A stretch of 64,000 nucleotides of DNA from Massilia putida. GTDB lineage: Bacteria > Pseudomonadota > Gammaproteobacteria > Burkholderiales > Burkholderiaceae_D. Shown piece after piece: positions 639 to 15,554 of this stretch (its first letter is position 1; the number at the start of each line of letters is the position of its first letter). Both the position numbers and the translations under genes were made by a program. A model generated the notes under the pieces. That model was not told where the DNA came from. It worked only from the letters and a program-made list of their open reading frames with translations, and ran no database searches. The stretch is taken from assembly GCF_001941825.1 (NCBI RefSeq), contig NZ_CP019038.1, positions 2,666,001 through 2,730,000 of the forward strand, given 5' to 3'.

Positions 639-2438
639 TTACTCCGGCTGAGCGTCGGCAAGCACCGCGATGCAACGGTCAAGTTCGGCCTGCCACACGG
701 CGATTGCGTCCGCATCGGTATGGGCGAAGCGCGCACGGAACGTGGCGACGGCCCGTTGCCGCGCAGGCTTATTCCACCACGCGGCGACATCATGCTGGAT
801 CGCATTGACAGCCGCTGCTGCGGCTTCCGGACTGTCGAACAGAATGCCGGCTTCGCGCAACTGCGCATAGCTGTCCACGGCTTCAGGGCGCAATTCATTG
901 GCCCCATGATCCCAGAACAGGATGGTTGGAATACCCGCAGCGAGCGCTTCGATGAACGTCGTGGACAAATGGTCGCAGATATAAAGCGCGCAATGATCCA
1001 GGCTTTGCTGGAAAGACACATCCCAGCTTTCGACCTGCAGTTCCGGGAACTCATCACGCAAGCGTTCAGCCACACCCCAGCCGGTATCTTCCCGGTGCGG
1101 ACGAAGACGCAACTGCCGGAATACATTCCGATCAAGGCTGGCTGCGAAACGCTGCTGCCAGTCGAGGTAGCGCTTGAAATCACCGGGTGTCCAGGGGAAT
1201 TGCACCAGATAGCGCGGCATCGTCGTGGCCACCCATAGCATGCCCGATTTAGCCGATGCGTCCGCGCTCGGGCCACGCCCGATCAACTTGGGTGCCGGCA
1301 TCGGAACGACGCATGCCGGCCTCCCCTCTCGCTTCCAACCCCAGGTGAAGTAGCGGTCCACGATCGCGGTTTCATGGTCCTCGCTCGGCATCGATGCCAG
1401 CGCACCATAGTTGCCGCCGTGTTGGCATCCAAGTAGCACGGCCCCCCGTTCAGCCATCGCCGCCGACCACTGCTTGAACACCTCGTCGTAGTACCAGGCG
1501 TTGGCGCTGAACACGGCAGTCACCCGCTTTGGAAAATTACCCCGGGCGGCCTTGCCGATGTCGCCATAAATTTCGACAAGGGACTTGGGCAAATCCCCGG
1601 GCAGAAGCGTTGCGATGCAACGCTCGAACTCGGCGTCGCCGAACGGCAGGCCCTGCAGCCGATCGCGTAGCGCCGGCTGCACCGGGCAATCGGAGAATTC
1701 GCCCGATGCGCCGAGCACCGGCAGGACGCGACCGGGACGGCTGGAAGCAAGCGACGCGAGCACGGATTTCGAGAAATAGGAATCCTTCAGAAGCACGGAA
1801 CGACAGATACGCGAGGCCGCACGCGCATACGACCGGCTTGCGATCCTGGCCGCGGTCTGCTTCCATGAAGGCTCGCTCGCCTTCACATATTGGACTCGCT
1901 GCGTTATGTCGCCGCCGCCCTGGCGGAACTTCAGACCCAAGGCGCTCAAAAGGCGGCTGTAGATCTGAAGATTGTAAGTATCTTCAATCAGGTAGGCGGC
2001 AAAGTCGTGCGTGCTTGCGGGCACGACATGTGCGCTCTCGGCCAGGACGATGGTGTCGAATCCTGGATATTGTGCGAGCGCCATCTTGAGACTGAGGTAG
2101 CGCTCGAACAATGCAGAAATGTAGACATGCAACCACGGTCCAGCGACGATGCGCCAATAGCGGAGACTGTGAGATTGACCATGCAACCCGTTAAGCGCCT
2201 CTGCCAGGACCGGCAAGATCCGCTCGTAGCATGCATGCACCTGATGGTAGGCTTCCTTGGCTGCGCCTTCCGACATGAATGGATCCGGCATGAGTTGCCC
2301 GTCCAATTGCTGCCACGACCGCTTGCGCTCATGCAGCAGGCACCACGGGCCAAGGAATACGATGGGTTTGGAGGTATCCCAGAACTCTTCCAACGCAGTA
2401 GTAGCAAGGAAGACCTCTTTTTCCCGGTTTCTCGACAT
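639..2438 (-). CDS. LIC12162-family putative transferase
   Basis: A 599-residue soluble protein resembling the LIC12162 family of surface-polysaccharide loci. Visible marks are the N-terminal FLGPWCL segment, a central stretch with CQHGGNYG, and a C-terminal part (FIEALAAGIPTILFWDHGA) that looks like the donor-binding half of a GT-B glycosyltransferase. The biochemical function of the family is not established to my knowledge; a transferase acting on the nonulosonic acid made by the neighbouring genes is an inference. The ATG at 2438 was chosen over a TTG at 2456, since neither has a clear Shine-Dalgarno and the ATG gives the MSRNREKEVFLATTAL start. It follows pseI by 38 nt and precedes the flippase by 3 nt. 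Confidence 0.8.
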   Translation of the reverse strand: MSRNREKEVFLATTALEEFWDTSKPIVFLGPWCLLHERKRSWQQLDGQLMPDPFMSEGAAKEAYHQVHACYERILPVLAEALNGLHGQSHSLRYWRIVAGPWLHVYISALFERYLSLKMALAQYPGFDTIVLAESAHVVPASTHDFAAYLIEDTYNLQIYSRLLSALGLKFRQGGGDITQRVQYVKASEPSWKQTAARIASRSYARAASRICRSVLLKDSYFSKSVLASLASSRPGRVLPVLGASGEFSDCPVQPALRDRLQGLPFGDAEFERCIATLLPGDLPKSLVEIYGDIGKAARGNFPKRVTAVFSANAWYYDEVFKQWSAAMAERGAVLLGCQHGGNYGALASMPSEDHETAIVDRYFTWGWKREGRPACVVPMPAPKLIGRGPSADASAKSGMLWVATTMPRYLVQFPWTPGDFKRYLDWQQRFAASLDRNVFRQLRLRPHREDTGWGVAERLRDEFPELQVESWDVSFQQSLDHCALYICDHLSTTFIEALAAGIPTILFWDHGANELRPEAVDSYAQLREAGILFDSPEAAAAAVNAIQHDVAAWWNKPARQRAVATFRARFAHTDADAIAVWQAELDRCIAVLADAQPE

Positions 2439-2476
2439 AACGGATCCAAAGAACAATCAGATACTGCGACCGCCGC

Positions 2477-3535
2477 TCAATCGGCCAGCAATGCGAACGT
2501 AAGGGCGGTATTGGCCGCGATATCCATCGCCGCTTTTTTTCCGATAACGTCTTCGAGGAACTTGGGCGCGAGGCCAAAACCGGGGCGCACGCTACGTACC
2601 GCATCGGCGGTGATCACATCGCCCTGCTTGAGATCCTTGACGATGTACAAGGAACGGCGGAACTGGGCATTGCCCTGTTCGCTCGACTTGCGGCCGTAAT
2701 CCACCTGGCCCAAGGCAAGCCATGCGGTTTTACTTCCGTGGCACAGGTGGGCCATTTCGGCCGGCTCCAGCGAGAAGCTGTCATCGGGACCGCCGCCATT
2801 GCGGTCGAGGGTGAAGTGCTTTTCGATGATCGACGCGCCCATCGCCACGCTTGCGATGGCGGTCGTGTTATCCAGCGTGTGATCGGACAGGCCAGTGACC
2901 AGGCCGAAGCGCGCGATCATGTCAGGGATCGTCCGCAGGTTGTAGTCCTCGGCCGGGGCCGGATAACCGCTCACGCAATGCAGGATCGCCAATTCCTTAC
3001 AGCCGCCCTCGCGTGCCGCGTTGATCGCTTCCTCGATCTCTTCCGCGTCGGCCATGCCGGTGGAGATGATCATCGGCTTGCCGGTGCCGGCAACGTACCT
3101 GATCAACGGCAGGTCGACCGCCTCGAACGAGGCTATCTTATATGCTGGGGCGTTCAGGTCTTCCAGCAAATCCACTGCGGTGGTGTCGAACGGCGAGCTG
3201 AAAATGGAAATGCCCAGCTTACGCGCATAATCGAACAGGGGCGCATGCCATTCCCATGGCATGTGCGCCTCCTCATACAGCTCATACAACGTCCGCCCAT
3301 CCCACAACCCTCCGCGAATGCGGAAGTCCTCATGTTCGCTCTTGAGTGTGATCGTGTCTGGACGATAAGTCTGAAGCTTGACCGCATCCGCGCCGGCCTG
3401 CTTCGCCTTTTCGATGATGGCCATCGCCGTTTCCATTCGACCATTATGGTTGGCCGAAAGTTCGGCGATCACATACGGCGGGAAATCAATACCGATGTTG
3501 CGACCGGCGATTGCCACTTTAGGATTGATCGACAT
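2477..3535 (-). CDS. pseI: Pseudaminic acid synthase (NeuB family)
   Basis: 352 residues. PseI condenses 6-deoxy-AltdiNAc with phosphoenolpyruvate to give pseudaminic acid in the cytoplasm. The N-terminal two thirds are a NeuB-type TIM barrel (VIAELSANHNG near residue 25, AVKLQTY, ISTGMA, LHCVSGYPAP, GLSDHT, IEKHFTLDRN), and the last 60 or so residues are an antifreeze-like SAF domain (RRSLYIVKDLKQGDVIT). Length and domain order are normal. The GGPDDSFS segment after the HFTLDR motif fits pseudaminate rather than sialate synthases. It sits 25 nt after pseH in a tight minus-strand operon. Confidence 0.93.
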   Translation of the reverse strand: MSINPKVAIAGRNIGIDFPPYVIAELSANHNGRMETAMAIIEKAKQAGADAVKLQTYRPDTITLKSEHEDFRIRGGLWDGRTLYELYEEAHMPWEWHAPLFDYARKLGISIFSSPFDTTAVDLLEDLNAPAYKIASFEAVDLPLIRYVAGTGKPMIISTGMADAEEIEEAINAAREGGCKELAILHCVSGYPAPAEDYNLRTIPDMIARFGLVTGLSDHTLDNTTAIASVAMGASIIEKHFTLDRNGGGPDDSFSLEPAEMAHLCHGSKTAWLALGQVDYGRKSSEQGNAQFRRSLYIVKDLKQGDVITADAVRSVRPGFGLAPKFLEDVIGKKAAMDIAANTALTFALLAD

Positions 3536-3560: not shown

Positions 3561-4091
3561 TTACAAGCAGGCCTGCCATTCACGTTGCAGCAGACCAAAG
3601 CAGATAACGTCGTGGTAGCGCTCTTCGTCGTGATGCTGGTCGCGCAGCACGCCCTCCTGACGGAACCCGAGCGCCTGGTGAAAGCGCAGCGACTTCGTGT
3701 TGTAGGCCAAGACCTGACCGCACACTTTATGCAGGCCGAGGCGGTCAAATGCGTAATGCAGCGTGGCCCGTCCCAGGCGGCGACCGGTACCCGCGGGGGC
3801 GCCTGGCGCAGCATAAAAACCCCAATCCGCGATCCCACCACTCCCGAGTTCCCCAAGGTTGACGAACCCGGACGCCTGCCCGTCCGCTTCGAACACCAGC
3901 AAATGCCTGCGCGGATCCTGGCTCGCGCGCTCGAACCATTGCCGGTGCTGCTCTAAGCCAATCTCTTGACGGGTATACATGTAGCGACGGACATCTGGAT
4001 GATTTCTCCACGCCAACACCAGTTCGAGGTCTGCATGGATCATCGTGCGCAGGGTATCCAAGACTCCCGCCTTCGGGTTGCTTTCCATCAC
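3561..4091 (-). CDS. pseH: PseH-type GNAT acetyltransferase
   Basis: 176 residues, one GNAT fold. It should acetylate the C4 amine of UDP-4-amino-4,6-dideoxy-AltNAc using acetyl-CoA, the third step of pseudaminate synthesis. The acetyl-CoA site is seen as GTGRRLGRATLHYAF, followed by LGLHKVCGQVLAYNTKSLRFHQALGFRQEG, typical of the RimJ/PseH branch. The start overlaps the stop of pseG by 4 nt, which supports both the start and coupled translation. A RimJ-like acetyltransferase of other specificity cannot be excluded by sequence alone, but its place between pseG and pseI makes PseH the best call. Confidence 0.87.
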   Translation of the reverse strand: MMESNPKAGVLDTLRTMIHADLELVLAWRNHPDVRRYMYTRQEIGLEQHRQWFERASQDPRRHLLVFEADGQASGFVNLGELGSGGIADWGFYAAPGAPAGTGRRLGRATLHYAFDRLGLHKVCGQVLAYNTKSLRFHQALGFRQEGVLRDQHHDEERYHDVICFGLLQREWQACL

Positions 4092-5170
4092 ATCCCCAGC
4101 GCGTGCAACAGGCGCTCTACGCCGTGTCCATCGACTAAAGCGCTGGCGGCGTCGCTGATCTGGCGCAGACGGTCGGGTTGCATGACGTCCGTCAATGCCG
4201 CAGGTAAGCGCCGGGGTATATCGCCCACATGGCCCAACAACAGCGCGGCGCCGACATCATCAAGGGCGGCCGCGCTGGATTCCTGGTTGGCGGCCAGGAT
4301 AACCATCAATGTCGGCAACCCGAGACAACAGCGTTCCCATGAAGTGCTGCCGGCGGCGCCGATCGCCATATCGCTGTCGGCCATGCGCTCAGCCATGTCC
4401 GAAATGTTGACCAGTACCTCAGTTGCCCAGGACATCCGAGTTGCGAATGCCTGCACCTCGGCGATCCAGGGCGCCTGCATGCCCATGACCACGCTGATGC
4501 GGCAGTCCGGTGGCAAGTCTGAAGCGCACAGGGCTGCCAGTACTGCCCCGGTCGCATTTGGCTGATCCACTCCGCCCATATTGACAAGGATGTGTCGCAA
4601 TGTCGCGCCGTTCCGGCGCGCCAGGCTGACCGGGCGCAGTCGGGCAAACTCAGGCCGCAACAATGCATAGGCCGGCCCCGCCAGCACGCTGCAGCCGTCA
4701 GGCACCAGTGCACTGTAATGGGCTGCGGCCCGCCCGAGATTCTGGTCGACCAGCAGATCACACGCGTGGGTGCGGTCCGCCAGGTCATCGATGACCAACA
4801 GTCTCGTACCCGCGACCGAGACGAAGCGCTCCCAACGCTCGTCGAGCGCGTAGTGGTCGAGCACGATCCAATCCGGCTTCATTGTCACTGCCAGTGCACG
4901 GGTTCGTTCCGCGTCGCTCTCCCAGGTGCACCCCAGCCAGGACGCATGCACAGGACCGTCGTCGTCGGGCGGCGCCGCATGACCGGCAACAAGCGCAGTC
5001 ACCTCGAACCCGCGCTGGCGCACCAATTCGATGAGATGTCCATCGTGTTTGCGGCTGACGAAATGACAAGACACGCCGCGCGCGCGCAGTGCGGTCGCCA
5101 GCGTCAGGCAGCGCATGATGTGCCCACTGCCAATCGAGACAGAAGCGTCTACGCGGAACAGGAACTTCAT
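4088..5170 (-). CDS. pseG: UDP-2,4-diacetamido-2,4,6-trideoxy-altrose hydrolase
   Basis: 360 residues. PseG removes UDP from UDP-6-deoxy-AltdiNAc, giving the free sugar used by PseI. It is a GT-B fold hydrolase; the N-terminus MKFLFRVDASVSIGSGHIMRC is the signature of PseG/SpsG, and the C-terminal half carries LVNMGGVD and GAAGSTSWERCCLGLPTL, the UDP-binding loop. A longer reading from 5251 would overlap the preceding gene and adds sequence unlike the family, so the ATG at 5170, 5 nt after the fusion gene, is taken. Its 3' end overlaps pseH by 4 nt. Confidence 0.93.
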   Translation of the reverse strand: MKFLFRVDASVSIGSGHIMRCLTLATALRARGVSCHFVSRKHDGHLIELVRQRGFEVTALVAGHAAPPDDDGPVHASWLGCTWESDAERTRALAVTMKPDWIVLDHYALDERWERFVSVAGTRLLVIDDLADRTHACDLLVDQNLGRAAAHYSALVPDGCSVLAGPAYALLRPEFARLRPVSLARRNGATLRHILVNMGGVDQPNATGAVLAALCASDLPPDCRISVVMGMQAPWIAEVQAFATRMSWATEVLVNISDMAERMADSDMAIGAAGSTSWERCCLGLPTLMVILAANQESSAAALDDVGAALLLGHVGDIPRRLPAALTDVMQPDRLRQISDAASALVDGHGVERLLHALGM

Positions 5171-5175
5171 CTGGC

Positions 5176-7203
5176 TCAGTTCAGACGCTTGAAACCCGCG
5201 TGGCAAACCGGGCCCTTGAGCAGGCTCATCACATCGCGCCCCTCTTCGCATTCTTTGATCAAGCCGAAGATCGGATCCAGCTCGGCAAAGAAGCGCTCGA
5301 CCACATCGGGCGTATGGGCAGTGCTTACGTAAACGCTATTACCTGCCAGGTAACCCTTAGCCAGCATTTCCTGAGTGATTAATGTCTTGTATGCAAGGGC
5401 GTTCTCGCTTTGGAACGAGAATCCGGTGAGCGCGGGCAGGCCCCAATGGTCGATCTTCAAGCCGTTCTTGTCGGCCAATTGCTGCCATTTTTCGCGGATC
5501 TGCAAGCCGGTATTGGTAATCGTCTCCCAGGACTTGGTCCGCTCCATCACGTCGAGCGTACGGAGTGCGGCGGCCGGGCCGATCCGCTCCGTCCAGAACG
5601 TGCTACTGATGAAGGTGGACTGCGCCGCCTCCATGACTTCCCTACGGCCGATCGTTGCGGTGATTGCATACCCGTTGCCCAGCGCTTTGCCGAACATGGC
5701 CATATCCGGCTCGACGCCGTACAGCTTATGCAGGCCGCCGAACGCCTGACGGAAGCCCGACGTACATTCGTCGAAGATCAGTACGATTTTGCGTTCGGTA
5801 GCAAGTTTACGCACTTTTTGAAGGAAGTTGTCTTCGGGCCCTTTATTCCGCACGACCTCCATTTTGATAACACCAATGTCGTGGGTATTAACCAACGCTT
5901 CCAGCTCGGCGTAGTTATTGTAATTAAATGGGAACACCGTGCCGCGCAAGTTCTGCGGCACGCCGGCTGGATCTAGGCCCGGAAGCAGGTGGCCGGCCAG
6001 GTTCTGGTCGTCGCCCAGGTTGGCCGACAGGTACCAGTCATGCCAACCATGATAGCCGCACACAGCAACCTTATCGCGACCTGAGGCTGCTCGTGCGATC
6101 CGGATTGCGATCGCGTTGGCCTCGCCCCCCGACCGGGCCAAGCGCACCATGTCGGCCCAGGGGTGGAGTTCGATCAGCTTTTCAGCAAGATAAACCTCTT
6201 CTGGGCAGTTGAAAGTAGACATATTGCCATCGGCAACAACTTGCTGTACCGCTGCATCGACTTCCGGGTGACCGTAACCAAGGGTGTTCGTGCCGATGCC
6301 CATGATGGACATGTCGGTGTACTCCTTGCCATCGAGGTCCCAGACTTTGCACCCCTTGCTCTTGCTGAAATATGCAGGCCACTGCTCCGGCAAGAACATT
6401 TCTGCACGTTTTGACAGCAACATATTGCCGCCCGGAATTACTTGTTTAGCACGTTTCCACAGTTTTTGGCCGGCGCTCATGCTAGCTCCTTCATTTCTAA
6501 TTATTTGCTGGTTAGCTTCAAACAATTCCGGATGAGTTTGACGTAATTTCAGGACTTGTTGCCAGGTTATGTCGGTTCGGTACGAAAAGTGTGCAAATAC
6601 CTTGCGGATTACCTCCAGATCAGCAGGTTCGTCAACAGTCCAGCGCAGCGCTGACAAGTCCTCGTCATTTACCATGCATCCCTTGCTGAAGCATGTTTGC
6701 TCGCGTAGATAGGGAGTCACATGCTCGCGATCGAATGGTTTGTCAGTCTCACGTGCGGCGCGGGCAAGCGCGGCATATTTAAACACTTCGATATCGAGCC
6801 CGTCAGGAAAAGTGGGCGGCGCAACGTTGCTGAAATAGTCGACTTGAGCCTGTTTGAAACGACGTATCGCCTCATCCACCAGTGCTGGATCGACCAAGGG
6901 GCAATCTCCCGTAATGCGTACGATCACATCCGCTTCGACCTGCTCTGCTGCACATAAAAAGCGGTGCAATACATCGTTCTCACTGCCCTGTATGCAGCGG
7001 TAGCCCAGCGCACGAACATGTTGTGCCAGTGGCAAATTACGCGGATCTTCCGACGTCGCGACTACAATTTCATCAACCTCGACAGCGCCCGCAAGACGCC
7101 CGAGCAGCAATTCGATCATTGGCTTGTCGCCAATGAGCTTCATGACCTTGTTCGGCAGACGCGTCGAGCCCATGCGAGCTTGAACAATAGCAACAATTTT
7201 CAT
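5176..7203 (-). CDS. SpsF-like cytidylyltransferase fused to class III aminotransferase
   Basis: 675 residues with two complete domains. Residues 1 to about 235 are an SpsF/NeuA-like nucleotidyltransferase (VQARMGSTRLPNKVM, VRITGDCPLVDP, DREHVTPY). Residues 242 to 675 are a class III PLP aminotransferase like glutamate-1-semialdehyde aminomutase: IPGGNMLLSKR near 256, SGGEANAIAIRIAR near 358, the FDE aspartate D478, and the PLP lysine K506 in MFGKALGNGYA. Inside the frame, directly before M242 (ATG at 6480-6478), there is an AAGGAG at 6491-6486 with 5 nt spacing, so the second domain may also be made on its own. The domains suggest CMP activation plus an amination of the sugar; the substrate is unknown. 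It lies 3 nt after the aldo/keto reductase and 5 nt before pseG. Confidence 0.88.
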   Translation of the reverse strand: MKIVAIVQARMGSTRLPNKVMKLIGDKPMIELLLGRLAGAVEVDEIVVATSEDPRNLPLAQHVRALGYRCIQGSENDVLHRFLCAAEQVEADVIVRITGDCPLVDPALVDEAIRRFKQAQVDYFSNVAPPTFPDGLDIEVFKYAALARAARETDKPFDREHVTPYLREQTCFSKGCMVNDEDLSALRWTVDEPADLEVIRKVFAHFSYRTDITWQQVLKLRQTHPELFEANQQIIRNEGASMSAGQKLWKRAKQVIPGGNMLLSKRAEMFLPEQWPAYFSKSKGCKVWDLDGKEYTDMSIMGIGTNTLGYGHPEVDAAVQQVVADGNMSTFNCPEEVYLAEKLIELHPWADMVRLARSGGEANAIAIRIARAASGRDKVAVCGYHGWHDWYLSANLGDDQNLAGHLLPGLDPAGVPQNLRGTVFPFNYNNYAELEALVNTHDIGVIKMEVVRNKGPEDNFLQKVRKLATERKIVLIFDECTSGFRQAFGGLHKLYGVEPDMAMFGKALGNGYAITATIGRREVMEAAQSTFISSTFWTERIGPAAALRTLDVMERTKSWETITNTGLQIREKWQQLADKNGLKIDHWGLPALTGFSFQSENALAYKTLITQEMLAKGYLAGNSVYVSTAHTPDVVERFFAELDPIFGLIKECEEGRDVMSLLKGPVCHAGFKRLN

Positions 7204-7206
7204 GTC

Positions 7207-8163
7207 TTAATTGTGTTTCGGCCACAAAGCCGGATTCAGTATTGCGGGGTCATCGATAGCAAATTGAGCGAAATCGATGCGCGGGACAGGTGGGAAAGAC
7301 GCAAACAATTGTTGAAGTTGGGCCACCGATTCAACACCAACGATCACTCGGTCGATTTCGGGAATACCTAACAGGAAGTGCAGTGCCGCATGGGCCGCAC
7401 TGATCCCGGCCGTACCTGCGATCGAATGAAATTGATCGAGTACTGGCTTGACCTGATCAAAATACGAATTCAAATTTAGCGGATCGGCCAATAACAGGCC
7501 CTGAAGAAATGATGAGCGTACGTGAATCCTGACACCGGCGGCAGCCAATCGAGCCAGGGCGCCGGACGTCAGTGGCCGCTGATCGAGCACGTTCATTGGC
7601 AGTTGCACCAGATCCATCGGAAACTTCACATGGATTTGCTCGGCAATTTCGCCACTGTAGACAGACACACCGATGTGGGCGACTCGTCCTTCGTCTTTAA
7701 GCTTAAGCATTTCTTCGTAAAGACGCTCACCGCCAGGGGCCAGCAAATTCGGAGCGTGGTGGATCAGCAATCCGTGCAAGCTTGGCGTACGCAAAAGGCG
7801 CAGTGACTGCTCAAACGCCGAGCGTAGTGTCCGCGCATCGTGCTCAGTGATCGCAGCATCGGAAAAACGAGGGGTTTTCGTGATGATTTCGAACGTCTGA
7901 AGGCGCTCACCACAAGCTCCCAGCGCCATTTCCGAATCGCCGTATAAGTGGGCAGTATCAATACACGACAATCCAAAATCGCGAGCTTGCTCAAGGATTT
8001 TTGCCAGCTCTACATCCGACGGTTTGCCATCTACGTTGAAGCGGCCATAATTCATGCCGAACTGGGCTGCCCCCAGCCCACAACGGCCGAGCAGTGTAGC
8101 GTCTGCGGATCTTTGCCAATCGATCATGCGTGATTCAAGACGCAGTTCGTAGATACGTTGCAT
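7207..8163 (-). CDS. Aldo/keto reductase family protein of the nonulosonate locus
   Basis: 318 residues, one AKR (beta/alpha)8 barrel. The catalytic tetrad can be read: the Asp and Tyr in CIDTAHLYG, the Lys in IITKTPR and the His in GLLIHH. GVSVYSGEIAEQI and the C-terminal RVIVGVESVAQLQQLF are the NADPH-binding region. It is not one of the six canonical pseudaminate enzymes, so in this operon it suggests an extra redox step on the sugar or on a substituent; that is inference from context. The ATG at 8163 is used; a TTG directly before it and an ATG at 8127 are alternatives, none with a convincing Shine-Dalgarno. Confidence 0.85.
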   Translation of the reverse strand: MQRIYELRLESRMIDWQRSADATLLGRCGLGAAQFGMNYGRFNVDGKPSDVELAKILEQARDFGLSCIDTAHLYGDSEMALGACGERLQTFEIITKTPRFSDAAITEHDARTLRSAFEQSLRLLRTPSLHGLLIHHAPNLLAPGGERLYEEMLKLKDEGRVAHIGVSVYSGEIAEQIHVKFPMDLVQLPMNVLDQRPLTSGALARLAAAGVRIHVRSSFLQGLLLADPLNLNSYFDQVKPVLDQFHSIAGTAGISAAHAALHFLLGIPEIDRVIVGVESVAQLQQLFASFPPVPRIDFAQFAIDDPAILNPALWPKHN

Positions 8164-8171
8164 CAACGTGT

Positions 8172-8816
8172 TTAAAGAAAGTCAGACAAACCACTTTCAA
8201 CAAGGGCCTTGACGTTTTCGTAATCTGATGGGTAGTCGACAGTGATGCGATACTTATTCAATGGCTGATCGCCAGCAACGTTGCAGACGAGCGGAGAGCC
8301 TTCGAGAGCACGCCGAATAAAGGGCGTTACGTGCTCACGGTCATAGGGGTCAACCGCGCAGCGTTGCGCTTCCTCGAGGATCGCTCGCGAAAATACCTCG
8401 ACATCCATACCTCGCGGATACGTACGCTCGATCGTATTGCTGACAAATTGCAAATCTCGGGACGTTAAATATGTACCGATAACACGGTCCACGATGGCGG
8501 GGTCAATGAGTGGACAATCCGCCGTCACACGCACCACGACGTCCGCACAGGTGTATTTGGCCGCAGCTGCATATCGCGACAGAACATCCTCTTCACTTCC
8601 GCGAAAGACAGCGACTGCCTGTGATTCACAAAAACTTACAATAGCGTCATCGTCAGGGGCCGCCGAAGTCGCAACTACAATCCCATCGGCACGATGCACC
8701 TGACGGAGGCGATCAATCAAATGCCCAAGCATAGGCCTGCCTGCCACAGGCATCAGGGCCTTACCTGTCAGACGCCGTGAACCCATTCGCGCCTGAACAA
8801 TCACAACTACTTTCAA
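8172..8816 (-). CDS. SpsF/PseF-like CMP-sugar cytidylyltransferase
   Basis: 214 residues, a single nucleotidyltransferase domain. The N-terminal nucleotide loop is VQARMGSRRLTGKALMPVAG, the metal-site region is VRVTADCPLIDP, and DREHVTPFIRRALE follows. This is the SpsF branch (Bacillus sps operon) rather than the classic PseF/NeuA form, but directly after pseB and pseC it is the natural candidate for making CMP-pseudaminate. The start overlaps the stop of pseC by 4 nt. A second SpsF domain is fused to an aminotransferase two genes on (5176-7203), so which one activates pseudaminate is open. Confidence 0.85.
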   Translation of the reverse strand: MKVVVIVQARMGSRRLTGKALMPVAGRPMLGHLIDRLRQVHRADGIVVATSAAPDDDAIVSFCESQAVAVFRGSEEDVLSRYAAAAKYTCADVVVRVTADCPLIDPAIVDRVIGTYLTSRDLQFVSNTIERTYPRGMDVEVFSRAILEEAQRCAVDPYDREHVTPFIRRALEGSPLVCNVAGDQPLNKYRITVDYPSDYENVKALVESGLSDFL

Positions 8817-9976
8817 CGAAGCATCTCCGCAAGAGCATCAATCACGCGGTCCTGATTGCTGAAATCCAAACCCGAATACATGGGCAGACTGATGGCTTCG
8901 GCATAATATTGTTGCGCCTGCGGAAACTCATCGCCCCTGAATCCCAATTTGCGGTAATAAGGCTGCGTGTGTACTGGAATATAATGGAGGTTTACGCCGA
9001 TGCCGCGCGCACGTAACGCGTCAAACACTTCCCGATGAGTATGTTTGAGCGCGTTTAATTGAAGGCGGATGACGTACAGATGCAGCCCCGAGTACGTGTC
9101 GGGTAATTGGTAGGGAAGCGTTACCGGTAAGTCAGCTAATAAGCGGTCGTACCGGCGCGCTAGCGCATGACGCGCCGCGACGAATTCGTCCAACCGATGC
9201 ATCTGGCTCACACCTAGCGCTGCCTGCAAGTCCGTCATCCGGTAGTTGAAGCCCAACTCAATCTGCTGATAGTACCAGGGCCCGTCGGCCGCATGCGTCA
9301 TCTGTGCCTCGTCGCGCGTAATGCCGTGGCTGCGGTAGAGTGCCATTTTTGCCGCAAGGTCGGCATCATTGGTCACGGCCATGCCGCCTTCTGCGGTGGT
9401 CACAATTTTTACTGGATGAAAGCTGAATACCGTGATATCGCTGTAGCGGCAGTTGCCCACCGGTTCGCCAAGGTAACGCCCCCCGATTGCATGCGACGCA
9501 TCTTCAATGATGCCAAATCCATATTGCTGACCGAGCGCATGAATTGCCGCCATGTCGCAGGGTTGGCCGCACAGGTGCACGGGAATGACTACCTTCGGCA
9601 ACTTCCCGACACGTGCCGCTTCGGCCAGTTTGCTCGCCAAGCAGTCGACATCCATATTGTAAGTACGTGGATTAATATCGACGAAATCCACCTCGGCGCC
9701 GCAATAACGAGCACAATTCGCACTGGCAACGAAAGTGATCGGCGTCGTCCAGACGATATCGCCCGGTCCTACGCCGAGTGCGAGGCAGGCAATATGCAGG
9801 GCACTCGTGGCGCTATTCACCGCCAGCGCGTGCTTTGCGGAACAATATTCGGCCACACTCCGTTCAAAGGCCGGTACCGCCGGGCCCTGGGTAAGGAAGT
9901 CCGACCGCAATACCGAGACAACAGCCTCGATATCCGACTCAGAAATATCCTGTCGACCGTAGGGAATCATGCTCAT
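8813..9976 (-). CDS. pseC: UDP-4-amino-4,6-dideoxy-N-acetyl-altrosamine transaminase
   Basis: 387 residues, DegT/DnrJ/EryC1 family PLP aminotransferase. PseC aminates the 4-keto sugar made by PseB, with glutamate as donor. Seen motifs: IPYGRQDISESDIEAV at the start, AVNSATSALHIACLALGVGPGD, IEDASHAIGG, the PLP lysine in FSFHPVKIVTTAEGG, and LGFNYRMTDLQAALG. Length is normal. The pseB stop and the pseC start share one base (TGATG). With pseB ahead of it the PseC call is firm. Confidence 0.94.
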   Translation of the reverse strand: MSMIPYGRQDISESDIEAVVSVLRSDFLTQGPAVPAFERSVAEYCSAKHALAVNSATSALHIACLALGVGPGDIVWTTPITFVASANCARYCGAEVDFVDINPRTYNMDVDCLASKLAEAARVGKLPKVVIPVHLCGQPCDMAAIHALGQQYGFGIIEDASHAIGGRYLGEPVGNCRYSDITVFSFHPVKIVTTAEGGMAVTNDADLAAKMALYRSHGITRDEAQMTHAADGPWYYQQIELGFNYRMTDLQAALGVSQMHRLDEFVAARHALARRYDRLLADLPVTLPYQLPDTYSGLHLYVIRLQLNALKHTHREVFDALRARGIGVNLHYIPVHTQPYYRKLGFRGDEFPQAQQYYAEAISLPMYSGLDFSNQDRVIDALAEMLR

Positions 9977-10986
9977 CAGATGCTATGGTTCGGATCGACG
10001 TGATCCTTGATTAACTGCCGCAAATCCGGGACGCTCAAAAAGTGCTCGTTCGTGCCGCTGTCATAGCTGAAGCCGGGTGGCACCGCCTTGCCGCCCATAT
10101 CGGCACAGTATTGCTGCAACGTATATGCACCGCTCATCGGAAGAATTGCATAATACTTGCCAATATCTACCGTGTTAAAACTGTCGCTGGCAGTGATCAT
10201 TTCCTCGTGAATTTTTTCACCAGGACGCACGCCGATAATCGGACGCTCACATTCGGGGCCGACCGCTTCCGCCACGTCGACGACACGATACGACGGGATC
10301 TTCGGAACCAATACTTCGCCACCCCAGGCATGTTCCAGCGACCACAACACCATGTCCACGCCCTCCTGCAGACTGATGTTGAAACGAGTCATCGCCTCGT
10401 CCGTGATCGGCAATACACCGGTAGCACGGCGCTCCAGGAAAAACGGGATAACGGAACCGCGGCTACCCATTACGTTCCCATAACGCACCACGCTGAAACG
10501 AATATCGCGATGTCCCTTGATATTATTAGCGGCAACGAACAATTTGTCCGAGCACAGCTTGGTGGCGCCGTACAGATTGATGGGTGCGGCGGCCTTGTCG
10601 GTCGACAACGCCACGACACGGTGCACATTGCTGTCCAAGCAGGCTTCGATCAAATTTTGCGCGCCCAGGACGTTCGTCTTGATGCATTCGAAAGGATTGT
10701 ATTCAGCCGCCGGCACCTGTTTCAAAGCCGCAGCGTGAACGACGACGTCGATACCCTCGAGTGCGCGACGCAGGCGTGCCTCGTCGCGCACGTCTCCGAT
10801 AAAGTAACGGATACCTTTATATTTGCTTTCCGGGAATTCCTGTGCCATTTCGAACTGTTTCAGTTCGTCGCGGGAAAAAATAACCAGACGCTTGATGTCG
10901 GGGTAACGCTGAAGCACCGTGCGCACAAACGCTTTGCCAAAAGATCCGGTACCACCGGTAATCAGGATCGACTTATCGTTCAACAT
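9976..10986 (-). CDS. pseB: UDP-GlcNAc 4,6-dehydratase (inverting)
   Basis: 336 residues, short-chain dehydrogenase fold with NADP site ITGGTGSFGKAFV at the N-terminus. PseB starts the pathway by 4,6-dehydration and C5 inversion of UDP-GlcNAc. Characteristic FlaA1/PseB segments are VIFSRDELKQFEMAQEF, DVVVHAAALKQVPAAEYNP, STDKAAAPINLYGATKL with the catalytic lysine region, and RYGNVMGSRGSVIPFF. It lies 66 nt after wzz, the widest gap inside this operon apart from the one between wzz and wza, and is coupled to pseC by the TGATG overlap. Confidence 0.95.
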   Translation of the reverse strand: MLNDKSILITGGTGSFGKAFVRTVLQRYPDIKRLVIFSRDELKQFEMAQEFPESKYKGIRYFIGDVRDEARLRRALEGIDVVVHAAALKQVPAAEYNPFECIKTNVLGAQNLIEACLDSNVHRVVALSTDKAAAPINLYGATKLCSDKLFVAANNIKGHRDIRFSVVRYGNVMGSRGSVIPFFLERRATGVLPITDEAMTRFNISLQEGVDMVLWSLEHAWGGEVLVPKIPSYRVVDVAEAVGPECERPIIGVRPGEKIHEEMITASDSFNTVDIGKYYAILPMSGAYTLQQYCADMGGKAVPPGFSYDSGTNEHFLSVPDLRQLIKDHVDPNHSI

Positions 10987-11052: not shown

Positions 11053-12282
11053 TCAGCGGCTTTTCCAACGCAGATTCTTGCGCAAGTCCATCAGGCGCTG
11101 ATGCTCCTGCGAGCCGACGCGACTCGCGACCCCATCCTTCCATTCCTTGTAAAACGCCCTGCACACCGCAATAAATCCGGCAATCAGCGCGCCCAAAAAG
11201 ACCATGATGGTACGTTTGGGCTTGCTCTTGCGATCGGGCTCGACGGCTTTATCCAATATCTGAAGTACGCCCCGGTCTTTAGCCTCGTCAAGCTTAGCGA
11301 TTTCAAACTGCTTCGCCAAAACTTCGAAAATTGCCTCGTTGTATTTTACGTCTCGCAACTTTCGAACATACTCAAGACCGACTTCCGGCATGCGGCTCGT
11401 TGCCACACCAATATCGCCTTTACCTGCGTTAACGCCCGTCTCGGCTTTGCTCAACTGAGCGCGCAGCCCATTAAGTTCTTCCTGCAAGCGTATATATTCA
11501 GGGTTATTTCCGGTGGCAAAGGTGCGCATGGCGCCGAGTTGAACTTCCTTTGCCGCAATTTGAGCTCGCAAGTTTGCTGCTGCGACAATAAGGACCTCAG
11601 CCTGACCTTCCGGCCGGATCAATCCAGTTTTCTCCTGAACTTTTTTAAGCGCCACCTCCGATTCCGCGAGGTTGAGTTTCGCCTGCTTCAATTGCTGTTC
11701 GAAGAAAACCCGCCGCTGCGCTGCGTCGCTCAACGCAAGCTCAGACATCAGTCGCTGTAGCTCTTCCACATATCCATTAGCAAGGCCGGCGGCACGCTTT
11801 GGATCAGTGTCGTCGACGTCAATGCTTATCAAGCCGTCTTTTCCCGCAGCGAAAGTACTAACGCCGGCCAACACTTTAAGGGTATCGCTGTGGAATGTGG
11901 TTTCATAAACCCGGTCGAGCTCGAACCTCTTGATCAAGCGATCGCCGACAGTACGACTACCGAGCATTCCAACATAGATGTCGGCGGGATTCTTAATCCC
12001 GAGAGAATTGCCTGCCAAGCCACCCAATGATCCCAATTGCCCAAGTATCATGGTTGCGGCCGACTGGGACTGCTGAGGTGGGAGAATTTTTGCCGAGGCG
12101 GTATAGATATTTGGCATCGCCATGCTGATACCGGCAACCAAGGCCGCGGCAACCAGGGTGGTGCCAATAATTGATTTCTTATATTTAGCAATGACAACAA
12201 GAAGATCGAGGATATGAATATCCTCCTCTTCGTGTTGCGATTGATCTTGCCTTGCTTTCATACCTACTTGCTCAGACATCAT
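11053..12282 (-). CDS. Wzz/Wzc-type chain-length determinant protein
   Basis: 409 residues. Inner-membrane polysaccharide co-polymerase that sets chain length in Wzy-dependent assembly. A short charged N-terminus is followed by a first membrane segment at about 38-58 (IIGTTLVAAALVAGISMAM), the Wzz motif YTASAKILPPQQS, a long periplasmic coiled-coil region around 180-330, and a second membrane segment near 365-390 (TIMVFLGALIAGFIAVC) preceded by the usual Pro-rich KSKPKRT. There is no kinase domain. Two adjacent ATG codons (12282 and 12279) follow a GAGAG; the first is used. It lies between the export gene and pseB. Confidence 0.9.
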   Translation of the reverse strand: MMSEQVGMKARQDQSQHEEEDIHILDLLVVIAKYKKSIIGTTLVAAALVAGISMAMPNIYTASAKILPPQQSQSAATMILGQLGSLGGLAGNSLGIKNPADIYVGMLGSRTVGDRLIKRFELDRVYETTFHSDTLKVLAGVSTFAAGKDGLISIDVDDTDPKRAAGLANGYVEELQRLMSELALSDAAQRRVFFEQQLKQAKLNLAESEVALKKVQEKTGLIRPEGQAEVLIVAAANLRAQIAAKEVQLGAMRTFATGNNPEYIRLQEELNGLRAQLSKAETGVNAGKGDIGVATSRMPEVGLEYVRKLRDVKYNEAIFEVLAKQFEIAKLDEAKDRGVLQILDKAVEPDRKSKPKRTIMVFLGALIAGFIAVCRAFYKEWKDGVASRVGSQEHQRLMDLRKNLRWKSR

Positions 12283-12347: not shown

Positions 12348-14261
12348 TCAGCCTTTCAACACCTTCAAGCCAGCCGCGCCGAGTCCGAACTGATAAAAGA
12401 TCGTGGTCCATTCCTTGAACGACTGGATCCAGGAGCCGTGTTCGATCTTTTCCGGCACGATGACAGTATCGCCAGGATTGACAATGTCGCCACCCAAGCC
12501 ACTAGAAAACCAGCCTGAGCTGTGATTGCTCTTGGCAGTACCGTCGGCCCGAATCACGTATGTTTCATCCTTGTCGGCAGAATTTGTATAGCCGCCTGCA
12601 AGCGCAAGGTAGTCGCTAACCGTGCGACGAGGACGATACACGATCGAATTGGCCTGATAAACAGCGCCAACAACCTCGACCGTGCCCGGTTTGCGTGGAA
12701 TGTAGACGGTATCCCCATCCTGCAATGGCAAATCAGGTAAATCCTTCACTTGCGCATTACTGTCGGCCAGTTCGAGAACGATCCTGCCCTCTGCTTTCAC
12801 TTGCCTCATGCGTTGCGCAACCCGGCGCTGACGTTCGATTTCAGCGTTGACGGCCGCGACGTTACTCTGATCAGAAGTGTGCGCCAGCCGCTCCGCAGCC
12901 GCGTTATCCAGATCATGCTCGAAGCGGTCGGCAGCCTCGTTCAACTTGATCTGCTGGGAACGCCGTACCGATTCGCGCACCAGACGGGTGGCGAATAAAT
13001 ATCCATTTTCAGTCGGGCCGCCGAGGCGTGCGATCAGTTCGCGCAGCGTCTCGCCTTTGCGAAGCTCGAACACACCGGATTGCTTGACTTCACCGGAGAC
13101 TTTGACATATTCGCGTTGGATTTGAATCTGAACCGGTACGGCGCCTGGGGAAAACACACGCAGGATGTCGGCCGGACGTACTGGGATTGGAGCGAGTCTC
13201 TGTGCCAACGCCTGGTTATCAGCTGACAGCTCGGCCACAGTTTGGTAGCCGTTGTTAACACTTCGCTCAACGACAATCGGCTTGCCTTCAGCACTCGAAT
13301 CGAATCCGCCGGCCCAGCGCACGACGTCGGCCAAGGACGATTGACCCTTCAATTCGAAGATCGCCGGTTGCTTTACATCCCCGGTCAGAGCAACAAGCGG
13401 ACCCACTTCAGGGATATAAATCAGATCGCCGTCACGCAGCGGCACATCCTTGCTCTTGTCGCCGTTGACCAGCATGTCATACAGGTCGAGCGTGGTGACC
13501 ACCTGATTTCCACGTTTCAATTGAATGTTTCGCATGGTGCCCGACGGATCCGGCCCGCCAGATGCAAATAACGCATTCAAAAGTGTACTCATCGCGCTCA
13601 AGGTATAAGTCCCGGGACGCGCTGCGTGGCCGGCCACGTAGATCTGCACGGCACGCGACTGCGCGATACTCACCGTGAGTTCAAAATTCTTGAATACCTT
13701 CGAGACCGCATTGGTCAGGTAGGCCTGCAGATCGCGATATTTGACACCCGCAACGTTTACGCTCCCAACGCGTGGAATATTGATGGCGCCGCGTCGATCG
13801 ACCGTGACCGTCACATCCATATCCATCATGCCCCAACCACGAATCTGCAATTCGTCACCGGTACCGATCGTATAGTCAGGATTGACAGGTGCCGAGTCAA
13901 GTGGCGCGAACGTAGTCGGCACATCCGCAAATAATCCGGCGCCAAAAATCGTCAGGTTCTTCCCGGTGACGGCCGTTGCATAAACCTCGAAAGCCCCTTT
14001 TTCAGAAGGAGCCGACTTGGCCGGACGGGTAAGAATTGGTGCGGGCTGCCTTGAAACAGCGTCGCGCGATGTACCGGCGTTAGAGTTTCGCGGGGAGGCA
14101 ATCACCGGCAAGCTTGAATTATTTGCCGGCAGAGGTTGCAGTGCGGCACCAACTGCAGATTGATCCTGCCCCATCGCTTGTGCTGAGCACATCTGGCCGA
14201 AGCCCAAACAACCTATTACCAGCAGGGTTTTCAAGGAGTTGACGAAATTTCGCTTTTCCAT
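12348..14261 (-). CDS. Wza-type polysaccharide export protein with SLBB domains
   Basis: 637 residues. Outer-membrane export channel or its periplasmic partner for the polysaccharide. An N-terminal signal peptide (hydrophobic LLVIGCLGFGQMCSAQA) is followed by a Poly_export domain (PVNPDYTIGTGDELQIRGWG, NIPRVGSVNVAGV) and several SLBB repeats (VYVAGHAARPGTYTL type, VSGEVKQSGVFELRKGE, VEVVGAVYQANSIVYRP). It is longer than E. coli Wza and closer to the multi-SLBB proteins of the EPS family. The ATG at 14261 has an AAAGAAGAG just upstream, while the in-frame ATG at 14285 has none, so 14261 is preferred. First gene of the operon as seen here. Confidence 0.9.
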   Translation of the reverse strand: MEKRNFVNSLKTLLVIGCLGFGQMCSAQAMGQDQSAVGAALQPLPANNSSLPVIASPRNSNAGTSRDAVSRQPAPILTRPAKSAPSEKGAFEVYATAVTGKNLTIFGAGLFADVPTTFAPLDSAPVNPDYTIGTGDELQIRGWGMMDMDVTVTVDRRGAINIPRVGSVNVAGVKYRDLQAYLTNAVSKVFKNFELTVSIAQSRAVQIYVAGHAARPGTYTLSAMSTLLNALFASGGPDPSGTMRNIQLKRGNQVVTTLDLYDMLVNGDKSKDVPLRDGDLIYIPEVGPLVALTGDVKQPAIFELKGQSSLADVVRWAGGFDSSAEGKPIVVERSVNNGYQTVAELSADNQALAQRLAPIPVRPADILRVFSPGAVPVQIQIQREYVKVSGEVKQSGVFELRKGETLRELIARLGGPTENGYLFATRLVRESVRRSQQIKLNEAADRFEHDLDNAAAERLAHTSDQSNVAAVNAEIERQRRVAQRMRQVKAEGRIVLELADSNAQVKDLPDLPLQDGDTVYIPRKPGTVEVVGAVYQANSIVYRPRRTVSDYLALAGGYTNSADKDETYVIRADGTAKSNHSSGWFSSGLGGDIVNPGDTVIVPEKIEHGSWIQSFKEWTTIFYQFGLGAAGLKVLKG

Positions 14262-15554
14262 TCTCTTCTTTACCTGGGACACCATCGCAACTACGCACGC
14301 ATCAATCTAAATATTGCTTTGAGGCGCACCTGTAATGAACTGCATAAGCTATAAAACATTTATAGCGGAACCAAACTGCACTCGATGACACATCGGATAG
14401 GACTGAGGGATATCCGACCGACGAACAAAAATCTGTCGCCAAACTTTAGGAGCAAAATATCCTTGGGTTACTCTTCGCATCTCAGCAAAAAACTCACAAC
14501 TCAGGCTTTCTTTACAGCTCTCAATACCGCCCGGAGATAAAACGTGGCACTAAAAATATGCAAAACCGAGATGATTCTGCATTTCGGATACGCCAGGATT
14601 TTGCAACCGGATTATTCATTTAACAGCGATGCAGCTCAGATCGGCCGGCATCCGTTGTCAATTAGGCAGCAATAACTGGAGATACTTGTTCCATATCGGC
14701 ACTTCCGCCGCATAGGGTACTCTTCGCCCTCAGAAAAACCGAAGCACTTAAAGTATCAAGGAAAGCAACGAAGTATTGAGAACCCGCAGAGAGACCCAGA
14801 TGGACTGGAACGCACACCTAAGAGACCGACTCTATATGCCTAAGTTAGCCCACCATTCTACCTGATAGCACCAAGGTTAGGAATCTTTTGTTGGGTATAT
14901 GCCGCCACAACACGTTGGGTAGCTCGAGACTCCAGTACATACACAACGCAGGTGAAACCCAACTTTGGACGCTCGTGACGACACTCAAGAGACGATGGAT
15001 GCGCTGTTCATGATATTGCCAGAAGGCATTTGAGGCGTGATTTTTTGATAGAATTAATGAAAAAGTTATTATGCAAGAAATAACGCCATGTGCATTTCAT
15101 TATATTGGTTTTGACAACAAAAAAACGCGATATGCAAGCTCTGAAAACGAGATCGCGCTAAATTTTGCCGTGCTACCTTTTATAACCCTGCAATTTTCCG
15201 CTTGATGGTCTACTGATGAGCAACGCTGGACTTGCGGTGAATCGGCCTATCCGTGATTTAAGCACCGGAGTCGATGCTCTGCTATCAAGGTGTATGCAGT
15301 GCAGCACTTCCGGCGCGGTTATCCGATAGGTAACACGAGGTCACCGCGCCCATCTAGTCGACGATGTCGCAACTGTCATCAGCGGCAGCTTCCTTGATGC
15401 CTTCCACACGCGTTCCGGCACGGCTCCACCGTCACCGCTCGAGCCCGCCCCTGCGCATAGACCGGCTCCAGCTGCCGACAACGTCCACATCTGACCATTC
15501 GATTGGCGTACCAGACCGAGACTAAGAAAGCCGGGATACCAAAACCTGCTGAAT
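14262..15554. other. 1.3 kb stretch without a gene, upstream of the polysaccharide operon
   Basis: No convincing coding frame on either strand; the composition is clearly more AT-rich than the core genome to the right, with runs such as those around 15040-15180. It should contain the promoter of the wza operon (minus strand). The only strong local symmetry found is the inverted repeat at 14348-14366. A 97-codon frame at 15379-15672 overlaps rsuA and has no family resemblance. The region may be a relic of a lost gene or a large regulatory region. Confidence 0.6.
14348..14366. repeat. Perfect 8-bp inverted repeat, possible operator of the wza operon
   Basis: GCTATAAA-ACA-TTTATAGC, a perfect dyad with a 3-base centre, 86 bp upstream of the wza start codon at 14261 and within AT-rich sequence. 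The symmetry and position fit a binding site for a dimeric regulator overlapping the promoter; as RNA the hairpin would be weak because of its A-T pairs. No regulator gene is seen nearby, so the function is inferred. Confidence 0.4.

Follow-up and report, generated by a model that had tools for sequence, protein, structure and literature searches.

A cytidylyltransferase-aminotransferase fusion in a Massilia pseudaminate operon: candidate for C8 amination of a nonulosonic acid, with a putative internal translation start

KdnA and KdnB of Shewanella oxidise and then aminate an ulosonic acid before its CMP activation, which is the order of events proposed here, whereas they belong to other enzyme families than those of the present locus and act on an eight-carbon acid. 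The accessible part of PMC3210612 names their sugar as 8-amino-Kdo and reports an 8-amino nonulosonic acid in the LPS of Flexibacter maritimus. In Acinetobacter prophages, EpaA (542 aa), which joins a CTP_transf_3 domain to an Aldo_ket_red domain, converts pseudaminic acid (Pse) to 8-epi-Pse together with the SDR EpaB (PMC12053666, accessible part). Two kinds of cytidylyltransferase (CT) fusion are already known from the accessible parts of their sources. The Pse cluster of Vibrio B9-25K2 has an SpsF-like CT joined to an aldo-keto reductase (AKR) after PseC, followed by a dehydrogenase, and the text consulted names no aminotransferase of the kind described below (PMC7371886); in phosphonate synthesis, Treponema denticola PntC-AEPT combines an N-terminal CT with a C-terminal aminotransferase, and the CT activates the amine handled by the fused domain (PMC6697681). 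The latter resembles the present fusion in domain architecture and has a LicC-like CT, an AEP transaminase and a phosphonate substrate. O-antigen loci of Legionella pneumophila sg6 and sg12 carry PseG, a class III aminotransferase, CT, AKR, DegT, CapD and NeuB as separate genes (PMC3694923, accessible part). Within the accessible portions of the open-access literature on nonulosonates, 8-amino acids, AKR and SpsF, we found no function assigned to this aminotransferase.

In a stretch of 64,000 nucleotides from Massilia putida (the window), a single ATG-started minus-strand frame of 675 aa encodes a CT followed by a class III aminotransferase (AT) (Table 1). The fused CT exhibited a score of 113 bits against CTP_transf_3 (PF02348, residues 4-188, cut-off 22.6), and its residues 1-232 match structure 6oew_A (E 3.9e-36); the AT scored 143.3 bits against Aminotran_3 (PF00202, residues 277-602, cut-off 30.5), and K506, presumably the PLP lysine of the family, is invariant in an alignment of 54 fused proteins. 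The PF00202 score and the conserved K506 identify the AT, at sequence level, as a class III (fold type I) aminotransferase. A second, free CT scored 99.8 bits against PF02348, and we take both CTs to be SpsF-like, the name also used for the Vibrio enzyme. By profile the free CT is not a PseF (TIGR03584, 21.4 bits, cut-off 205.7), and for the fused CT this profile is absent from the 25 listed of the 73 matching families.

Table 1 Coordinates of the fusion gene, its internal start and the surrounding operon in the window
Feature	Position	Strand	Basis
CT-AT fusion gene, 675 aa	5176..7203	-	ORF list and Pfam
N-terminal CT domain including linker RNEGAS, residues 1-241	6481..7203	-	PF02348; 6oew_A match
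C-terminal class III AT, residues 242-675	5176..6480	-	PF00202; K506 invariant
AAGGAG, Shine-Dalgarno-like	6486..6491	-	5 nt (CTAGC) before ATG
Internal in-frame ATG, residue 242, start of possible free AT	6478..6480	-	Sequence
PseB	9976..10986	-	TIGR03589 522 bits, cut-off 407.8
PseC	8813..9976	-	TIGR03588 574 bits, cut-off 423.5
Second, free CT	8172..8816	-	PF02348; 42% identical to fused CT
AKR, KidO-like, below KidO cut-off	7207..8163	-	PF00248; NF011432 158 of 244 bits
PseG	4088..5170	-	TIGR03590 316 bits, cut-off 153.6
PseH	3561..4091	-	TIGR03585 129 bits, cut-off 93.1
PseI	2477..3535	-	TIGR03586 508 bits, cut-off 340.3
LIC12162-family transferase	639..2456	-	TIGR04331 536 bits, cut-off 225

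Reading from 10986 down to 639, the minus-strand gene order is PseB, PseC, free CT, AKR, CT-AT, PseG, PseH, PseI and LIC12162-family transferase, and PseB, PseC, PseG, PseH and PseI all exceed their NCBIfam equivalog cut-offs. The 675-aa ORF, its two Pfam domains and these Pse profiles confirm an earlier note, made from the sequence and its open reading frames, that had described two enzymes sharing one frame within a pseudaminate operon. PseG is listed from 5251, and its start is likely the ATG at 5170, judged by its position after the stop of the fusion; AKR is listed from a TTG at 8166, with an ATG at 8163, and no clear Shine-Dalgarno (SD) sequence lies ahead of it. Among nine operon proteins scanned, none matched adh_short_C2, the profile sought for an EpaB-like SDR, and adh_short was matched by PseB only; Rfam at gathering scores gave no match between 600 and 16500.

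Pse carries nitrogen at both C5 and C7 and ends in a methyl group at C9, which leaves C8 and C4. We propose, with confidence evenly balanced between acceptance and doubt, that the operon makes Pse, that AKR and AT exchange its C8 hydroxyl for an amine, that a CT activates the product, and that the inner start adds free AT. Specifically, PseB, PseC, PseH, PseG and PseI would build pseudaminic acid for later tailoring; AKR, paired with one CT as in EpaA, would turn the free hydroxyl at C8 into a ketone; at this carbon the class III AT would place an amine; and the CT fused to it would form the CMP sugar of 8-amino-8-deoxy Pse for the surface polysaccharide. In the close clade defined below, the AAGGAG and ATG at the domain border would let ribosomes supply extra AT chains beside the fusion. 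The assignment of each CT to its sugar is presumptive.

The choice of C8 is made by analogy: because EpaA sets a precedent at this carbon (PMC12053666, accessible part), CT-AKR fusions occur, and an 8-amino acid has been reported, we propose AKR as the enzyme that forms the 8-ketone and AT as the one that forms the 8-amine. In the same-genus genome G034, a 537-aa CT-AKR chain (L124:8173-9786 (-)) lies directly before CT-AT, and a 566-aa CT-AKR fusion is present at L041:3337-5037, with Asn and Gln alternating along its linker; in the window (7207-8816 (-)), the counterparts of the G034 chain, the free CT and AKR, are separate ORFs whose frames differ, with eight bases between them. These domains, fused in G034 and adjacent in the window, are likened to EpaA by domain content. 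The systems differ further in that the partner of EpaA is an SDR, which the AT fused to a second CT would replace here, and in that the window genes lie inside a Pse operon. AKR residues D70, Y75, K97 and H136, which we take to be the catalytic tetrad, are invariant in eight of eight aligned proteins; a search of the window AKR against a phage collection gave no match. The AKR-CT-AT module recurs by sequence across loci, and a further amination of the nonulosonic acid appears to be the best reading of this neighbourhood. Possible counter-evidence comes from Legionella sg6/sg12, if its AT is orthologous: a title in the reference list of PMC3694923 (accessible part) refers to a non-1-serogroup polymer of a nonulosonic acid without a third amine.

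We then consider how widely the fusion occurs. Full-length fusions were found in 3 of 101 genomes of a first sample, the window's own included, and AT homologues occurred at E<=1e-90 in the order (7 of 399 genomes) and the phylum (9 of 398) and at E<=1e-120 in the family (8 of 392) and the class (6 of 369); the window's genome is part of each of these four samples, which overlap. A scan of genome contigs gave 588 relatives among at least 592 pattern matches, and the titles of the best 80, which were kept, name Proteobacteria, Chlorobi, Bacteroidota, Cyanobacteria, Verrucomicrobia, Firmicutes, archaea and CPR bacteria, many being metagenome bins whose taxon labels may be wrong. Adding the loci obtained by the genome searches brought the number inspected to 95. 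Fifty of these are fused, and in 22 a CT gene adjoins the AT outside its frame (special cases among the 22 are L089, with a broken frame, and L117, with a different CT). The fusion and the separate neighbours, both of which the earlier note had suggested seeking in related genomes, are thus widespread. A plasmid search showed two distant full-length fusions. In L089 (a Devosia bin), the CT-AT frame is disrupted around 10000, through assembly error or decay.

The earlier note had also likened the gene to two genes merged by loss of a stop codon. A merger in this direction is possible rather than established: the fused label requires nine changes on the AT tree (computed without L089, whose frame is broken, and L101, which is cut short), and one case is an apparent later separation. 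In G478 (L117/L123), the closest of the separate cases, a free-standing AT starts at the ATG corresponding to the internal one, which AAGGAG precedes at an unchanged distance of five nucleotides, and a stop codon lies within an apparent leftover linker. Because this AT is nested inside the fused set (support 87 on a quick tree, 99 for the enclosing 46-row set), a later separation, with the former inner site now serving as the gene's start, is the more likely course. Separate genes make up the deep branches of the AT tree, which come from Bacteroidota, Firmicutes and archaeal bins, so an ancestor with separate CT and AT is plausible. Identities to a same-genus genome are higher for AT (87%) than for its neighbours CT (66%), AKR (69%) and PseG (50%). 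We also observed an unfused AT retaining a piece of the linker in Rhodoferax (L042) and, in two genomes (L123:5294-6735 and L004:1-1483), a different CT gene next to a gene that by eye looks methyltransferase-like, both beside the AT; in G478 they lie upstream of it.

At the domain border, the AAGGAG (6491-6486) that the earlier note had placed five nucleotides ahead of an in-frame ATG (6480) is indeed there. Among the 1778 ATGs of the window (both strands), three have AAGGAG at -16 to -4, the internal ATG being one of them, and among ten operon start sites compared only the internal start has it. By eye, GGAG precedes the free CT and AGGA lies before PseI, farther upstream; no SD is visible by eye before the fusion gene's own start.

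We compared the junctions of 47 fusions (L119, L120 and L122, at 34% AT identity, were left out). A 5-base SD core precedes 19 of 31 junction ATGs vs 20 of 736 other in-frame ATGs in the same genes. The linker follows R[N/D]xGx in 42 of the 47 and reads RNEGA in 24; since conservation as Glu-Gly-Ala would by itself favour an SD-like string through the protein, the codon of the glycine was tested. This codon is GGA in 23 of 43 fusions, where 9.4 are expected from the genes' own codon usage (P = 1.2e-6), and in 20 of the 31 ATG-bearing fusions (6.3 expected, P = 1.5e-8), whereas other Glu-Gly pairs of these genes have it in 8 of 43 cases. These P values assume independent loci and the loci are related, a kinship shared by the control of other conserved Gly columns; in this control, the junction had the highest GGA share overall (first of 37 columns), in the ATG set (first of 42) and at AT identities of at least 77% (first of 46), but came 17th of 33 columns when only the 11 ATG loci under 77% were counted. 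Similarly, AAGGAG is present in 17 of 26 fusions at or above 77% AT identity and in 1 of 21 below. The GGA excess was repeated in ten later loci, nine of them fusions: 6 of these 9 have GGA where 1.6 would be expected (P = 0.0012), against GGA at 2 of 8 other Glu-Gly pairs, and with L130 and L133 dropped as copies of L055 and L047 (L134 being separate and uncounted), the count was 5 of 7 (1.2 expected, P = 0.0017).

These results suggest that in the close clade the internal site exceeds a by-product of the protein sequence and is conserved beyond the codon-usage expectation, in keeping with the conservation among close relatives on which the earlier note's proposal depended. In the distant fusions, the site has decayed. 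A chance SD in the close clade is ruled out by the GGA excess, the SD-core contrast and the AAGGAG conservation.

Of the competing explanations, the one that keeps the most weight, at somewhat under an even chance, is that only the fusion is made and that AAGGAG either is a relic or merely reflects the conserved linker together with the gene's history; it concerns the internal start alone and is compatible with the proposed chemistry. The conservation of the linker as protein agrees with it, as does the single AAGGAG among the distant fusions, and the junction has no start codon in 11 of the 47 fusions (5 of these 11 with an unconserved linker). A synonymous shuffle of SD pairing to the 16S tail likewise gave a weak result (Fisher P = 0.038 in the ATG set; 0.11, the 11th percentile, for the window's own pairing energy). 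Against a fusion-only product stands the GGA excess of the close clade, seen relative to the genes' own codon usage, to other Glu-Gly pairs and to other conserved Gly columns, and repeated in the new loci. Across fusions, start codon and AAGGAG correlate (P = 0.033), with independent tree pairs too few for confirmation. Folding predictions leave most of AAGGAG unpaired in the window and in L031, with partial pairing in G034, and put the internal ATG of the window and of L031 into a weak stem; in these three, no start-region fold stands out from its shuffles. From the conserved site we infer that in the close clade ribosomes can also start inside, giving a free AT beside the fusion.

We next consider where the AT acts. 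The neighbourhood was scored by tblastn with the window proteins, a search that may undercount fast-evolving genes, in 42 well-flanked loci, the catabolic group excluded. A PseI/NeuB-family gene and a CT of this type were each found in 38 loci, AKR in 36, PseB and PseC in 34 each, PseG in 18 and PseH in 13 (not detected: AKR in 6, PseC in 8, the PseI-type gene in 4, CT in 4). PseC scores above its cut-off here and was detected in 34 of 42 loci, so a separate enzyme is usually available for C7 amination; the AT as a replacement for PseC in this operon is ruled out by the PseC present above cut-off. Where PseC is missing, the AT could in principle serve the hexose stage.

This bears on a doubtful alternative, to which we still grant some weight, that the AT acts elsewhere, at C4 of the nonulosonic acid or on a hexose precursor before condensation. 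C4 also bears a free hydroxyl; for the hexose stage, L060 and L108 have the series PseB-CT-AT-NeuB, where neither PseC nor AKR was detected, and a close PseC is lacking from several fused loci that carry an RmlD-type reductase. The PseC equivalog in the window and its frequency across loci argue against action at another position or stage, as do the AT relatives that adjoin lyases handling the finished acid (described below) and, for the position, the EpaA precedent at C8 (PMC12053666, accessible part).

The RmlD-type loci are seven (L049, L050, L056, L057, L058, L059 and L080), each with a fused CT-AT, an RmlD-type reductase and a distant NeuB (28-33%). PseG was undetected in all seven by tblastn, and a close PseC is absent in six, L057 having one of 62%. 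If the reductase replaces PseC, these loci probably represent a 7-hydroxy nonulosonic acid branch in which the AT is kept.

No other operon gene was seen in 12 of the 95 loci. In six of them (L061, L063, L064, L066, L068 and L077), the AT adjoins a peptide-type ABC transporter and a NanA-like lyase, an apparent pathway, as judged from gene content, for uptake and breakdown of nonulosonic acids. The L064 lyase passes the NCBIfam N-acetylneuraminate lyase cut-off (294 vs 281), the L068 lyase is under it (248), and a NanK-like kinase in L064 is below its own cut-off. Some of the six operons also carry a PhyH-family dioxygenase, a second DHDPS-family protein, a class IV aminotransferase or an MlrC-type protein. 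L069 has five neighbours in common with L068, and its contig ends before the transporter-lyase part; of the other loci without operon genes, L062, L070 and L113 are short, and L081 and L095 differ. On the tree, the label 'catabolic' covers ten loci without an operon-gene match, L095 (which is within the 42) and L113 being labelled 'other'. All six lyase-operon ATs fall in the 46-row set together with 35 fused ATs (SH-aLRT 99). Because they are nested among fused ATs, the common substrate is likely the finished nonulosonic acid and not a UDP-hexose, and on this evidence the AT would act on a nonulosonic acid.

The reaction type can be weighed in the same way. It is rather improbable that the AT is an isomerase, moving or inverting an existing amine in the manner of glutamate-1-semialdehyde aminomutase or the class III racemases. 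The best-scoring named profiles for the AT are indeed glutamate-1-semialdehyde aminomutases, class III racemases are among its solved relatives, and the Legionella locus of similar genes comes without a reported third amine (PMC3694923, accessible part). However, none of the 25 listed of the 73 matching profiles reaches its cut-off, the PRK06209-type aminomutase profile NF004856 giving 241.5 bits over the whole AT against a cut-off of 486; the solved relatives also include an aminopentol aminotransferase and a C-6' aminotransferase, and the ketone required by a transaminase could come from the AKR partner. We consider it hardly credible that the AT is an ordinary HemL (haem synthesis) paralogue fortuitously fused: several database names do read 'glutamate-1-semialdehyde 2,1-aminomutase', but the HemL equivalog TIGR00713 gives 185.7 bits against a cut-off of 527.3, the window's genome has another AT homologue elsewhere (36% identity), and a PseI/NeuB-family gene accompanies most well-flanked loci. 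Profile scores below cut-off and the Pse context rule out a haem aminomutase identity, and the nonulosonate context that the earlier note had seen for the AT is upheld over haem synthesis.

Extended beyond this operon, the preferred reading of AKR and AT as a C8-aminating pair becomes more tentative, possible rather than probable: paired CT-AKR and CT-AT proteins would make 8-amino sugars from Pse and related acids in many phyla, environmental bacteria would have recruited the same AT for breaking such sugars down after uptake, and the gene of one clade would make both fused and free AT. If true, this would be an undescribed branch of nonulosonate metabolism. For an AT family of at least 8000 proteins, whose names, where given, often read as haem-pathway aminomutases, this would mean a part in the synthesis of amino-rich sialic-acid-like sugars and, in other bacteria, in their breakdown, and the enzymology of 8-amino nonulosonic acids would become testable. 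Furthermore, the gene allows comparison between lineages in which an internal translation start at a fusion border has been retained, has been lost or has apparently been put to use again.

Beyond PseB there are two further ORFs, of 409 aa (11053-12282) and 645 aa (12348-14285), which by eye resemble polysaccharide chain-length and export proteins.
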